This document shows, one piece after another, positions 349 through 63,759 of a stretch of 64,000 bases of DNA. The notes under the pieces were generated by a model. It had not been told where the DNA came from. It was given only the letters and a program-made list of their open reading frames with translations, and searched no databases. Positions within the stretch are counted from its first letter, which is position 1, and every line of letters begins with the position of its first letter. The translations under genes and the position numbers were made by a program. The stretch comes from Antedon mediterranea (lineage: Eukaryota; Echinodermata; Crinoidea; Comatulida; Antedonidae). The stretch covers positions 21,590,912 through 21,654,911 of the forward strand of contig NC_092675.1 of assembly GCF_964355755.1 (NCBI RefSeq), read 5' to 3'.

Positions 349-1522
349 CTAATGACGTCTTGAAGTTATAGTTTGGTAGGTGTCATCTTCAACTACATTT
401 ACCTGACTGAAGTTTAGGTGATTGTACTCGTTTGAATTGCCCTTTTTAGTTGACGCGAGAGTTTGATCATCATCAACGCATGTGCTTGTTTCCTGTTCAA
501 CAGGTACGTTTACCTCCGCATTTGGGCAACTGTAGTAATTGGAATCGTCCCCTTCAGGTGACTGGACACTTTGGTAGGTATCATCATTGACTCTTGTGTG
601 CTGTGTGTCTTGTTCAGCAGGTGGGGTTACCTCTAAGTTCAGGCGACTGTAGTCATTGATATCGTCCTTTTCAGGTGACCGGACACTCTGGTAGGCATCA
701 TCGTCAACTCTTGCGCGTCGTGTGTCTTGTTCTGTAGGTGGGCTTACATCTAAGTTTAGGCAACGGTAATTAGAATTGTCATTTTTAGGTAAGGCTAAAG
801 CCTGGTAGGTATCATCATCAACTCCTTTAGCAGTCCCGTCTGATTCCCAGTTTAGGCAACTGTAGTCATTGGAATTATGCTTTTTGAGTGAGGATAAATC
901 CTGGTAGGTATTATCATCAACTCTTTCAGCAGGCCCGTCTGACTCTAAGTTTAGGCAACTGTAGTCATTGGATTTGCCCTCATCAGTTGACGCGAGAGTT
1001 GTGTAGGTATCGTCGTCACCTCCTGCGCGTGTGTCTTGTTCAGTAGGTGCGTCCAACAACTCCAAGTATAGGTTGCTGTCATCGTCGGAATTATCCTTTT
1101 CAGGTGTGGCTACCGTAAGGTAGGTATCATCAATTCTTACACGTCTGACTGGAGCTTTTTCAGAATTATTCTCTTCTTCTAAATCTATGTAACTTCCATC
1201 ATCTAAATCATCTTCAAAAGTATTGAAGCCTTGGTTAACCTCACCAGCGCGATCTGAAGTTATTAACTCCTGGTAACTTTCTTCTTGACTTACGCAGTTA
1301 ACTTTTTGAACAACGGTATTATTTGGAAACGACGTTTCTGGTGACTGGTATGTGTTATCAAGATTCATGCTGTCGACATACATGTTTCGGTTATTTTGTT
1401 TTGAATTTCTAACTGCGGTCTTTTTTTTAAATCCCCGATGCTTCTTTTTTTGACAATAGAATACGACGAGAAGACATGCCGCCATAATAAATATAAGCAG
1501 TCCAACACCAGCATAGACCACA
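349..1522 (-). CDS. R1 last exon: transmembrane helix and ITAM-repeat tail
   Basis: One 1174-nt exon encodes the membrane helix (VGLLIFIMAACLLVV), a basic stop-transfer and the whole cytoplasmic tail. The tail is built from degenerate repeats of about 34-40 residues, each with a DDDTYQxL-type and an NDYSCLNL-type motif. Y-x-x-L/I pairs at ITAM spacing lie at protein residues 865/879 and 898/912 (10 residues between), 931/944 (9 between) and 1058/1074 (12 between). A fifth pair at 969/983 has Val in its first motif. More single motifs (YQEL, YIDL, YLTV, YLEL) lie nearer the membrane. Acidic residues precede most tyrosines, as in ITAM and Syk/Src substrate sites. The acceptor ends CGTTGTAG and leaves one base that completes the codon begun in exon 13. 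The stop is TAG at 349-351. Confidence 0.9.
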
Positions 1523-4500
1523 CTACAACGAAAAAGTAATATAAAGTATATATAAAGTTATTTTTATTAATATCATTACCATGTGTGCTGTGTTGTTATT
1601 TACCATATCCTGAAGTTTTACAGGGGTCAAGCTTAAAGTTTTTTTAACTTATTTGGCCCCTTCACACTTCTCTGATTAGCAAGTACAAGCAAGTATCTTT
1701 ATTTATAATTAATTTTATTAACATATTTATTATTTATTATTGATACCTGCTTACTGAATTTGTACTATTTGTATTTAAAACGTGAAAAAATTAAATAAAA
1801 GAAAGAAAAGAAATATTGGTGATAACGCTATACATTACACAACTATTACTCTAATCGTGTACTGTAGATTATTACAGCGATGAAGTTATTAAAAACTTCC
1901 TCCAAAAACTTACTGATTATAACTTGATGATGATGATGATGATGATGACGATTTCTCATTAGTTACATCAATATGAACCAATGCAAAATCTATCTTCGTG
2001 TTTCCGATGACATCCGTGGCTTGAACCCAAATTTGATATGTCCCCGAGTCCTCTTCATCTTTAAAGTAAATATTTACTGTTTCTTCCTTAAATGAAACCA
2101 AATACATTTTTTTATTTGAAATAACAATATATATAATATCATAATTAATGCATTTATTAAGAAATTTGGTTTCTATGACAAATGGTTAGTTACATGTTAG
2201 TTACATGAACACCATGACCACATCATAAGAAAAGAAAACATGGAACATTTATTTTAAACTCTGGAGAAACTGGCAGAAAAATGTGCAGGAGCAGACAAAG
2301 ATTCCGATAGATGTTTGCTAAATACCATAAACTATCTACAATAAATGCAGGAATCGCCAGACCTTAACGTTGACATACGGACAGGACACAAGAAGAAGAA
2401 GAATAAAGAAAGAACAAATACAAGTGACATAACTTACATGAGTTTTCAAAACTCTCCATTCTGGTTTCACGGACTCGAATGTTTCTCCTTCAATGCTATT
2501 CTTTAATAATCCAAATTCAAACTTTATAATTCCATTTGCATTACCAATGGCCGATAAAGGGCGTCCTGCTGGATGTGCCTCTGAATCGTAAGCTTCCTGG
2601 AATGTGACGTCATCATCCGATATAATTGCCAGTAACAGATTTTGGTCCACGTGTAGTTGATTTATGAAGTGACCATTCCATGATAACGTTACCTATCACA
2701 AATGTAACCATTTTATTATTATAAAAAAAATTCCAATTTTATTTTTTAACCATAAAATTGTGTTATCAATATCATGTCTGTTATTATTTAGAATTCATTA
2801 TTAGTATTATTTTTATTTATGGTATTTTTAAAAGATCATTAATTAACTGTATAATAACAATATTTATATTAAGGTAATAAATAAAATAAACGTGATTCAT
2901 ACATTTTCATATGCTTTTACGGACACGTCTGAGTTATTGTTGAATCTCTTGCCACTAATTGTTAAATATATAGGTTTATCTTCCACGGTAGTGATTTCAC
3001 TTTGGTTGTCATAAATAATACATCGTCGTGCATTGCGAACATTTCCCGCAACATCGTTGACAGTTAGTATGATACAGTAGACACCTTTAGCAAAATATAA
3101 AAAACAACATTTTTGTTTTGAACAATGATATCAAAGAAATTAATGTCTATGGACACACGGATTAAAACTGTGTATGCACACGATGACCTAGTTTCAGGAT
3201 TATGACATTTTCTACTCATTCTCTAAGCCTGAAATACGAAAAAAATCGTCACCGTCACCACGAAGTGGTATGTATGTATATCAAACTCTATGTTTTCACA
3301 AAATCTTAACTTTCAAATATCATTAATTAACTAATTAAATTAATTAGGCAATATCAAAAAACACCATCATGGAATTTGCGTTTTTAGGAAGTGACACAAT
3401 TTATTAAATACCCGTATGTGGTGCTTGCCCAGTGCACACGCGTAATGAATTTTGCGCGTTTGTTTACAGTTTTGGCCTAGCCTACAGCCTAGCTAGGAGG
3501 ATCTGGTTGCACACTCCAGAACAGTGCATTTCAAGTGACACTAACTGCATTAGTGTCACTTCGTAAGCGTAAACTACGCAGGGAAATGAATTTTTCGGTT
3601 TCACGAAGTGACACTAATGATTAACTTTAATTTACTTGGTAATTAATTAATATGATTAAAATTAAATTAAAGTAATGGGTAGCTGGATTGTCTAACATTG
3701 TATGTATTTAAATTAAAAATCTTAGTGACATTTTTTGAGGACGAAATCGTGTGTGAAGCTCGTTTCTTCAATCGCGTTTTTCTCGAAACGCTGTTTTTAT
3801 CAATTACGCGGTTAGTGTCACTTCGTGGTGTCGACGACGAATTATTTGTTTACCCACCCTATAATTTGCGAGTGTCTGGCTGTTGGATGAGTATCGAAAA
3901 TAAAAACACAATGAGAAATGAAAAGAATAAAGAACTCACCAGGCGACGGAAGTGGTGTAAACGTTACTTGGTATTCATCACCACTTTGTCTATACTTTAA
4001 AGGACCAAATTCATTATCTGGAATTAAGATATCATTTCTGGCTGCCATTTTATAAATGCGACAGTTGTAAGACGGCCGTGGTCTTAACCCTGAAATATAG
4101 TCAACCCATGACGTCCAACGAATATCAACCTCATTCTAGAAGGAATCATATCATTACCGTGTATATTATAATTTTTCAACATAATTGATATATATGTGCG
4201 GTCAACTTTAGAATACATTGTTTCCATTTATATAATAAACAATGGTTCTTACTAATCTCGTATAAGGCTCGCCGACATCTAATGCATTCCCAACGCATGG
4301 CACAACTCCTTGTACAGAACAATGTGTAGGCGGTTCAGTATCAATTTTTACATTCACATACATAGTTATACTTTGTCCTTGATAATATTCCCGGTCGGTT
4401 GTTTCATTCCCAGTATTTGAAAAGTCATAGTTTTTCCGTTCAATATATCCACCATTGGTTGCATTTGCTGAGAAGAATAAACTGAAATCCGCAGATATAT

Positions 4501-63100: not shown

Positions 63101-63759
63101 GCAACAATATACAAAATTGGAGCGCTATATTTGTGAATGTCCTAGCTTTTCGGCCTAGCCGTAGAGTGAACGATAGTTCAAGATGGACGTGTGGATTAGT
63201 GTGGAAGAGGATCACCTCGATGATCGAAGTTGTTTTGTAATGTTGTAGGCTTATACAATTACAATTTGACCAAGTGTGCCATAATAAAATATATTTTTAC
63301 ATTCATGAACGTTGGATTTTGATGACCAATGTCAGTAGGTTCACCATCACTGTTTTCATGCTGAAATGAAAAGAAATAATGAAAACATAGATCATAATTA
63401 TTTTTGAAAATAAAAATGCAGGTTGTTTTGACCATTTTTGTTTTTTATATTTTCCTAATTATCTGAAATAATATATGGTAAATCTTGTAAATTAATTTCT
63501 GGTTGTTCTGTCAATACATCATTTTTTTAAGTATTAAATTTATACCTTGTATAAGTACCGTAGTGTAAAGAATATAATAAGAGAATACACTGGACTGAAT
63601 GGAATTATAATGTATACAATTTCTTACACTGTTTGTTCTTTTTATAAGCATCAGCACAATAAAGATGATGAACAGCAACAATGCGGCACCAATTGCAATT
63701 CCAACAATGAGCCCAATACCAACTCCCCCGTCGTCACTTTCCTCTGTATTAGTATTACT
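60121..63759 (-). CDS. R5: receptor tyrosine pseudokinase (C-terminal half; 5' end beyond window)
   Basis: Ten exons: 63628-63759 (transmembrane), 63301-63360, 62871-63024 (juxtamembrane), 62586-62723, 62110-62220, 61708-61886, 61405-61527, 60941-61052, 60731-60827, 60121-60274. They total 1260 nt (419 aa plus TAA), all in phase. The helix is [20 protein letters not shown]. The juxtamembrane has [17 protein letters not shown] and DEYASPL. Kinase landmarks (visible-part numbering): AVKSLK Lys 158, LHEIK Glu 175, [18 protein letters not shown] 261-268, DFG 281-283, [34 protein letters not shown]; tail ends [14 protein letters not shown] is HRN and only one glycine of the Gly loop is kept, so catalysis is doubtful. 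Homology to R4 predicts an EMI/EGF/sandwich ectodomain to the right of the window. Confidence 0.92.
61405..61527 (-). CDS. R5 catalytic-loop exon with HRN and DFG
   Basis: 41 codons, phase 0 on both sides. [10 protein letters not shown] replaces the tyrosine-kinase consensus HRDLAARN: the codon is AAT (Asn) where catalytic Asp is expected. The downstream Asn of ARN and the TDFG Mg-binding motif are kept. ERBB3 has the same HRN substitution. The donor is GTTAAT, a weaker site. Confidence 0.92.
62586..62723 (-). CDS. R5 kinase N-lobe exon with degenerate glycine loop
   Basis: Reads [17 protein letters not shown] then KLAVKSLK. Against G-x-G-x-x-G-x-V only the middle Gly aligns. The ATP-anchoring Lys is present. 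Entry and exit are both phase 1. Confidence 0.88.
62871..63360 (-). CDS. R5 juxtamembrane exons shared with R4
   Basis: Exons 63301-63360 (20 codons, identical in length to R4 41090-41149) and 62871-63024. They match R4's tail nearly residue for residue up to DEY(A/T)SP. R5 then reads LSLGVTNQ and splices (GTACAG) into the kinase, while R4 terminates. Confidence 0.9.

Follow-up and report, generated by a model that had tools for sequence, protein, structure and literature searches.

Introduction

ErbB3, PTK7, ROR and RYK are receptor pseudokinases, and in ErbB3, too, an asparagine stands in place of the aspartate of the catalytic HRD motif. The clustered Alr receptors of Hydractinia have immunoglobulin (Ig)-like ectodomains. 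The engulfment receptors Draper, MEGF10 and CED-1 are described in passages of a published account (PMC8092387) as combining an EMI ectodomain with an immunoreceptor tyrosine-based activation motif (ITAM) and an NPxY motif, by which Src-family kinases, Syk/Shark and CED-6/GULP are recruited. Portions of another (PMC12065747) indicate that invertebrate allorecognition systems use ITAMs and the corresponding inhibitory motifs (ITIMs) and that the Botryllus family belongs to the Ig superfamily. Here, we describe a receptor gene cluster of the crinoid Antedon mediterranea (genome of 354 Mb in 18 contigs), centered on a stretch of 64,000 nucleotides at C6:21,590,912-21,654,911, hereafter the window. 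An earlier note on this DNA had recognized in it five linked paralogues, R1 to R5, with one ectodomain and interchangeable signaling tails. The cluster and its relatives can be best explained as a family of receptor pseudokinases in which one crinoid branch bears tyrosine-motif tails in place of the kinase, the whole probably forming a system with a shared ligand and multiple outputs; we place the probability of this reading at about one half.

Results

Linked paralogues with a common ectodomain plan

That these clustered genes share one ectodomain plan and differ in their cytoplasmic ends is supported by the gene models. As predicted from these, the plan comprises a signal peptide, an EMI region, EGF-like modules, a row of beta-sandwich exons and one transmembrane (TM) segment, followed in R5 by a tyrosine-kinase-like domain; the exons of R1 run in the order signal peptide, EMI (two exons), EGF, Cys-rich, second EGF-like, beta-sandwich exons, and TM with tail. 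Four public Antedon proteins match the cluster, namely P0006 (R1), P0001 (the C-terminal part of R4), P0002 (R5) and P0005. The first three were placed on the window and its right flank and P0005 on the left flank, with 0 unresolved junctions under the GT/GC-AG rule and with the first 3 residues of P0001 left without a placement on the DNA; R6 and R1 each have a full-length public model. The first 13 junction phases are the same in R1 and R5 (2,2,1,1,1,1,1,2,0,1,0,0,2), and those of R6 fit the series once its 2 absent exons are allowed for. Exact mapping of the public models and these phases bear out the exon plan proposed for R1, R4 and R5. The exon lengths previously listed for R1 and R4 (132, 229, 196, 182 and 255 nt) do recur, with 132 in R1 and R5, 196 in R1 and R4, and 182 and 255 in all three; the length 229 is true of R4 and fails in the public R1 model, which has 256 instead.

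The 13 C-terminal exons of R4 (48700-40766) correspond to P0001, and its N-terminal signal peptide, EMI and EGF exons, which lie outside the public R4 model, were modeled from homology and splice-site scores, with the donor of the Cys-rich exon placed by hand to agree with R1 and R2. R5 has 26 exons (window-equivalent 71413-60121), and most of its ectodomain (64307-71413) lies beyond the right edge. Its relationship to R1 and R4 had been named as a check of the common plan; upon reading the region to the right of the window, the R5 ectodomain proved homologous to both, being 76% identical to the modeled R4 ectodomain and 43% identical to that of R1, and the common plan accordingly stands. Two further members, R6 and R7, sit ~45-59 kb to the left of the window (C6:21,532,111-21,546,272), and no family match was found in the 10 kb read of the R7-R1 interval (L037) or in the 10 kb read of the right flank beyond R5 (L038). 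The cluster noticed at first is real and larger than described, R6 and R7 having been missed; R2 is disrupted and R3 is a fragment.

The Pfam EMI model (cut-off 25 bits) is passed by P0003 of the crinoid Anneissia (25.7), with R1 (23.0) and R6 (18.1) falling below; R4 and R5, despite the absence of a Pfam EMI match, align with R1 across this region, including its cysteines. Beyond it lie one PEAR1-like EGF match (EGF_PEAR1L, below cut-off), one further EGF-like module and a long predicted beta-strand region, and neither the Pfam scan nor structure prediction revealed a long EGF/NIM repeat array in the ectodomain. The AlphaFold2 model of P0001 (13 rows; mean predicted local distance difference test score 70.5, predicted template modeling score 0.54) consists mostly of beta strands, with a helix at the TM segment (602-622) and a low-confidence tail, and the folds it matches are generic arrays of Fn3 or Ig domains, Tie2 Fn3 and KIT among them. 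In the type-B members R2, R4 and R5, the ectodomain carries one more module next to the membrane, for which no counterpart was seen in R1, R6 or Anneissia P0003, so that a single ectodomain holds as a shared plan and not in every module.

A kinase domain without the catalytic aspartate

The kinase-like tail noted for R5 was recovered with a strong Pfam match in P0002 (PK_Tyr_Ser-Thr, E 1.1e-72), with HRN for HRD. A survey of 42 retrieved proteins yielded 26 with a kinase domain, 25 of them readable, as Anneissia P0003 ends before the catalytic loop. The aspartate of HRD is present in 0/25: two crinoid proteins (P0002, P0004) have HRN, 22 bivalve proteins HRR and one (P0014) HKR, the bivalve kinases being paralogues from seven genera and not independent events. 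DFG is kept in both crinoid domains (2/2), and GFG takes its place in 22 of the 23 bivalve proteins, the motif not being found in P0039. Of four other Antedon kinases picked as controls by a pattern limited to D or N at this position, three (L009, L010, L032) have HRD and one (L027) has HRN; L020 gave no match. The L027 sequence (C11:15,670,928-15,671,233) is a kinase exon with HRN and DVG for HRD and DFG, close to L032 with its intact motifs, and is possibly a separate pseudokinase.

Among the best 60 of 2295 rows of a PDB search, the FGFR1 and Tie2 kinases are the top matches per domain, with Tie2 just after FGFR1; a tandem EGFR construct leads the list only by having two domains counted. 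No HRD-bearing paralogue with the same ectodomain occurs among the matches listed in the genome and protein-database searches. Thus, R5 may be classed as a receptor pseudokinase, in which the loss of the catalytic aspartate can be read directly and inactivity is presumed. The differing residues at the lost position are compatible with a single ancient loss and later divergence as well as with two losses.

Tails that follow ectodomain descent

The R1 tail (367 residues) has 19 tyrosines, 12 YxxL/I motifs and 4 ITAM-like pairs (L/I, gap 6-12), or 5 pairs if V is permitted, under definitions of ITAM-like, YxxL/I and related tail motifs that we take as given. Neither 12 YxxL/I nor 4 pairs was reached in any shuffled version (0/2000), which bears out the multi-ITAM tail proposed for R1; among the tails shuffled, the pattern is above chance in R1 only. 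Across its 6 tandem units, the motif columns (Y, L, Y, L, N) have a mean pairwise identity of 0.83 versus 0.51 overall, with 111/20000 random column sets as conserved. The pooled ratio of nonsynonymous to synonymous substitution rates (dN/dS) among the units is 0.74; hence, they appear loosely constrained. NPxY/F is absent from this tail. ITIM-pattern matches occur only singly, with one each in R1 (within a pair), R7 and P0008, and no clear inhibitory tail was found among the cluster tails examined for motifs.

The juxtamembrane regions of R4 and R5 each contain one NPTF, one PPAY and 0 YxxL/I, with NPVY and PPEY as the counterparts of NPTF and PPAY in Anneissia P0003. The third tail exon of R4 stops where that of R5 runs on into the kinase, and no R4 kinase exon lies downstream; the kinase-less NPTF/PPAY stub described for R4 is seen as such, and R4 is by sequence an R5-type receptor whose tail is the R5 tail minus the kinase. 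The dN/dS between R4 and R5 is 0.42 (527 codons from exact blocks) and 0.25 for TM and tail (46 codons), pairwise values that do not tell which copy is constrained. The R4 intron between the TM and NPTF exons contains a long TA-type simple repeat (41199-41430).

Ectodomain trees unite the tail-A receptors R1, R6 and R7 at 99/100 in both of two runs, the second of which dropped P0009, P0014 and P0015 and added L049, and group R2, R4 and R5 at 91/85 in the first run only. In these trees and gene models, tail type within the cluster follows ectodomain descent: a tyrosine-rich tail stands in place of the kinase in the R1/R6/R7 branch of Antedon, and R4 keeps the juxtamembrane stub of R5. The data point to tail lineages and one truncation, not to exon swapping; with R1, R6 and R7 in one clade and R4 bearing a kinase-less R5 tail, the idea of interchangeable tails had to be given up, and free exon shuffling of tails is rejected by the trees. 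R6 is without two exons, and the per-exon identities among R1, R6 and R7 are uneven, which could reflect gene conversion.

Relatives elsewhere in the genome and in other phyla

In a P0005 search of the Antedon genome (60 matches; best 54 of 76 candidates scored), further relatives appeared at C3:13.79 Mb, C3:13.91 Mb, C6:5.18 Mb, C5:21.58 Mb and, weakly, C11:16.44 Mb. In a P0002 search (38 of 317 candidates scored), the listed ectodomain matches were all in the cluster, with an adjacent kinase in R5 only. A variant architecture is seen in P0008, where LDL-receptor class B repeats replace EMI and EGF and the tyrosine tail is short; its best match is the C3:13.91 Mb copy, from which the C3:13.79 Mb copy hardly differs. 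These two copies (L048, L047), each read over 10 kb with the P0008 propeller exons falling outside the stretch, are near-identical, cover P0008 residues 282-874 and differ in few tail residues. The copy L049 (C6:5.185-5.190 Mb) has the propeller and a tail open reading frame (ORF) with one YESV and proline-rich stretches, and adjoins a reverse-transcriptase-like ORF.

A crinoid-only ectodomain profile retrieved at least 13 proteins, of which 7 come from crinoids and 6 from bivalves (bivalve E 2.5e-33 to 7.2e-53), and a wider profile at least 30, with 29 from bivalves and one from the gastropod Batillaria, in a model without a kinase. These lists are incomplete, the first omitting P0003 and P0005 and the second the crinoid proteins, though the profiles contained all of these sequences; the matches listed include no protein from vertebrates, sea urchins, starfish or hemichordates, which does not prove absence. 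The related ectodomain is joined to a kinase in seven bivalve genera. Six bivalve proteins scanned have EGF and Fn3 below cut-off, the latter near the membrane, and a kinase above it in 5/6, with an EMI-like start recognizable by alignment only. Neighboring locus names (ACJMK2_023996 to 024003; LOC128240260, 240261 and 240263; MAR_035361, 035365 and 035372) suggest that the bivalve genes, too, are clustered.

Likely remnants and other features of the window

R2 and R3 look like remnants. Relative to R4, R2 has a ~640 bp deletion (R2 16621/16624 versus R4 47432/46792) that joins two exons, and no public R2 protein is among the hits of the profile and protein searches matching the cluster. A TM-like ORF at 26779 and an FDNLTF peptide at 28419 do exist beyond this broken exon; the short FDNLTF tail once assigned to R2 is nevertheless not supported because the fused exon puts the incoming frame into a stop, and R2 is rejected as a working short-tailed receptor. 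Of R3, only the signal peptide, the EMI region and a single EGF-like exon are present, and no exon homologous to P0002, P0005 or R1 was found between window positions 20978 and 34147. The long interspersed nuclear element (LINE)-type element listed in Table 1 has an RVT_1 match (E 1.3e-23) in the ORF at 22328-24370, its other ORF being presumably ORF1-like. A second LINE-type sequence lies at 27142-27954 (+), where the ORF at 27142 resembles that at 22328-24370 (27% over 183 residues). The region 53180-57054 holds repeat blocks with ~54-100% peptide-level identity between copies, in frames of both strands.

Table 1. Receptor genes, their parts and a mobile element in and around the window (window positions unless a contig is given)
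Feature	Position	Strand	Description
R1	349..8081	-	type I receptor, 14 coding exons; P0006 exact map
R1 last exon	349..1522	-	TM and 367-aa tail, partly tandem repeat units
R2	12517..21026	+	type-B copy, opposite strand, disrupted; homologous exons
R2 fused beta-sandwich exons	16511..16739	+	~640 bp deletion relative to R4; incoming frame hits stop
LINE-type element (ORF1-like and reverse transcriptase)	21549..24373	+	downstream of last identified R2 exon
R3	34108..37603	-	5' fragment; exon homology
R4	40766..51990	-	type-B receptor without kinase; P0001 exact and homology-built N-terminal exons
R4 TM, NPTF exon, PPAY exon	40766..41819	-	third tail exon has stop; no kinase exons after
R5	60121..64000	-	within window: TM, NPTF exon, PPAY exon, kinase-like domain; runs right to window-equivalent 71413
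R5 kinase-like domain	60121..62723	-	HRNLGARN (catalytic Asp absent); DFG and VAVK-type Lys kept; AVEG for APE
R6	C6:21,538,569-21,532,111	-	left of window
R7	C6:21,546,272-21,540,630	-	left of window

Discussion

If the cluster is indeed a pseudokinase-receptor family with one tyrosine-tailed branch, its shared ectodomain would bind a common or related ligand. The YxxL pairs of R1 might then be phosphorylated by Src-family kinases and recruit tandem-SH2 kinases, as in Draper/MEGF10, making R1 the activating arm; R5, presumably incapable of phosphotransfer, would serve as a scaffold, partner or co-receptor through the pseudokinase together with the NPxF and PPxY sites for adaptors; and R4 would be a kinase-less modulator or a sink for the same ligand. 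One recognition event could be tuned in this manner through several outputs, and an immune or engulfment function may be surmised for the cluster. The resemblance to paired activating and modulating receptors pointed out earlier stays tentative: the ITAM-like pairs of R1 are far above shuffles, those of R6 and R7 are not, and no clear inhibitory tail was found among the cluster tails examined for motifs.

Several observations weigh against this reading. The Pfam EMI model has no match in R4, R5 or any of the bivalve proteins scanned (6/6). The R6 tail has 3 YxxL/I, a count equaled or exceeded in 207/2000 shuffles, with 0 L/I pairs and 1 pair if V is permitted, and the R7 tail has 1 YxxL/I (846/2000); neither is above chance, and both are rejected as multi-ITAM receptors. 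P0008 and L049, with their short tyrosine tails, form a separate ectodomain branch (99/98, second run), so a single origin of tyrosine tails is not established. The HRN motif is no proof of inactivity, and it is also present in another Antedon kinase fragment, L027. Finally, the kinase tree joins the crinoid and bivalve domains in 2% of 200 bootstrap trees, and forcing them into one clade costs 4.63 log units (approximately unbiased test, p 0.159, not rejected); this ectodomain may have acquired a kinase on two occasions.

Three other explanations have to be considered. These proteins might be receptors for engulfment or scavenging, akin to Draper/CED-1/MEGF10, that share EMI and EGF by chance and have no paired logic, for which speak the EMI matches of R1, R6 and Anneissia P0003 (those of R1 and R6 below cut-off), the sub-threshold EGF_PEAR1L similarity, the ITAM-like pairs of R1 and the NPxF/NPxY of type B; a mere one PEAR1-like EGF and one EGF-like module ahead of a long beta-sandwich region, and the kinase domain in the relatives, make this unlikely. 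We are similarly skeptical of developmental or adhesion receptors, i.e., Tie-like or ROR/PTK7-like pseudokinases that underwent ordinary lineage-specific duplication and whose tyrosine-rich tails act in adhesion signaling. The leading FGFR1 and Tie2 kinase matches, the membrane-proximal Fn3 matches of bivalve members, which are below threshold, and the Fn3-array-like predicted fold, with Tie2 Fn3 among many rows, agree with it, whereas the multiple copies in bivalves and crinoids, the remnants and the neighboring locus names, unlike conserved single-copy developmental receptors, argue weakly against it.

It is also conceivable that the cluster consists mostly of decaying duplicates, with R5 and R1 functional and the rest debris. 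The disruption of R2, the fragmentary R3, the two exons missing from R6 and the LINE-type element in the cluster are what such decay would leave; the mapped R4 exons are nonetheless open, with the pairwise dN/dS of 0.42 versus R5 (the constrained copy not being told), and R6 has a full-length model like R1, rendering this explanation improbable. The pseudokinase-receptor family with a tyrosine-tailed branch remains our preferred reading. A bolder version of it, in which the family is ancient in Bilateria, its kinase died before the mollusc-echinoderm split, and a crinoid branch swapped in a multi-ITAM tail to give an activating/modulating set on EMI-EGF-beta-sandwich rather than Ig or lectin ectodomains, is offered tentatively and is on the doubtful side.

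In keeping with the earlier note, no account of the family was found in the open-access literature searched; in the retrieved text of the oyster kinome paper (PMC4883820), 'pseudokinase' has 0 occurrences and Tie 1. Taken singly, receptors with EMI and EGF, ITAM tails and receptor pseudokinases are familiar, while their combination and distribution are without a description in that literature. The cluster is real and looks undescribed, and the wider family is of greater interest than the cluster itself. If the preferred reading is true, a receptor with the catalytic residue missing from the kinase of all readable members has been retained and multiplied in two distant phyla, offering a natural system for asking what a pseudokinase receptor does. 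In the crinoid, one ectodomain plan would occur side by side with a pseudokinase, with ITAM-like motifs and without any kinase, so that the replacement of tails and the pairing of receptors could be tested directly beyond the Ig and C-type-lectin families.

Comparison with known systems

Like ErbB3, PTK7, ROR and RYK, the R5-type proteins are TM receptors with a tyrosine-kinase fold minus catalytic residues and are presumably inactive; they differ in having an unrelated ectodomain and no same-ectodomain HRD paralogue among the matches listed. With the HRD aspartate in 0/25, they stand apart from catalytic receptor tyrosine kinases. The succession of EGF, Fn3 and kinase recalls the Tie receptors, and Tie2 scores just after FGFR1, but the EMI-like start, the absence of an Ig match above cut-off and the lack of the catalytic aspartate in 25/25 readable members set them apart.

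The clustered paralogues and, more tentatively, the ITAM/ITIM-type tails are paralleled by Hydractinia Alr, Botryllus fuhc and vertebrate paired receptors; to our knowledge, no kinase-bearing members occur in those clusters. Allorecognition evidence, a point of difference from the present cluster, exists for Alr and fuhc. Paired receptors have near-identical ligand-binding ectodomains and an ITAM on one partner with an ITIM on the other; here, R4 and R5 are 76% and R1 and R5 43% identical, R1 has ITAM-like pairs, and the ITIM pattern occurs only as single matches. With Draper, CED-1 and MEGF10, the cluster shares an EMI-like N-terminus (R1, below cut-off), an EGF-like module, a single TM segment, ITAM-like pairs (R1) and NPxF/NPxY (type B), differing by a beta-sandwich region in place of the long EGF/NIM array and by the pseudokinase of the relatives. 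Moreover, the ITAM-like pair and NPxY that Draper and MEGF10 unite in one tail are here split between receptors, with the pairs only in R1 and NPTF only in R4 and R5.

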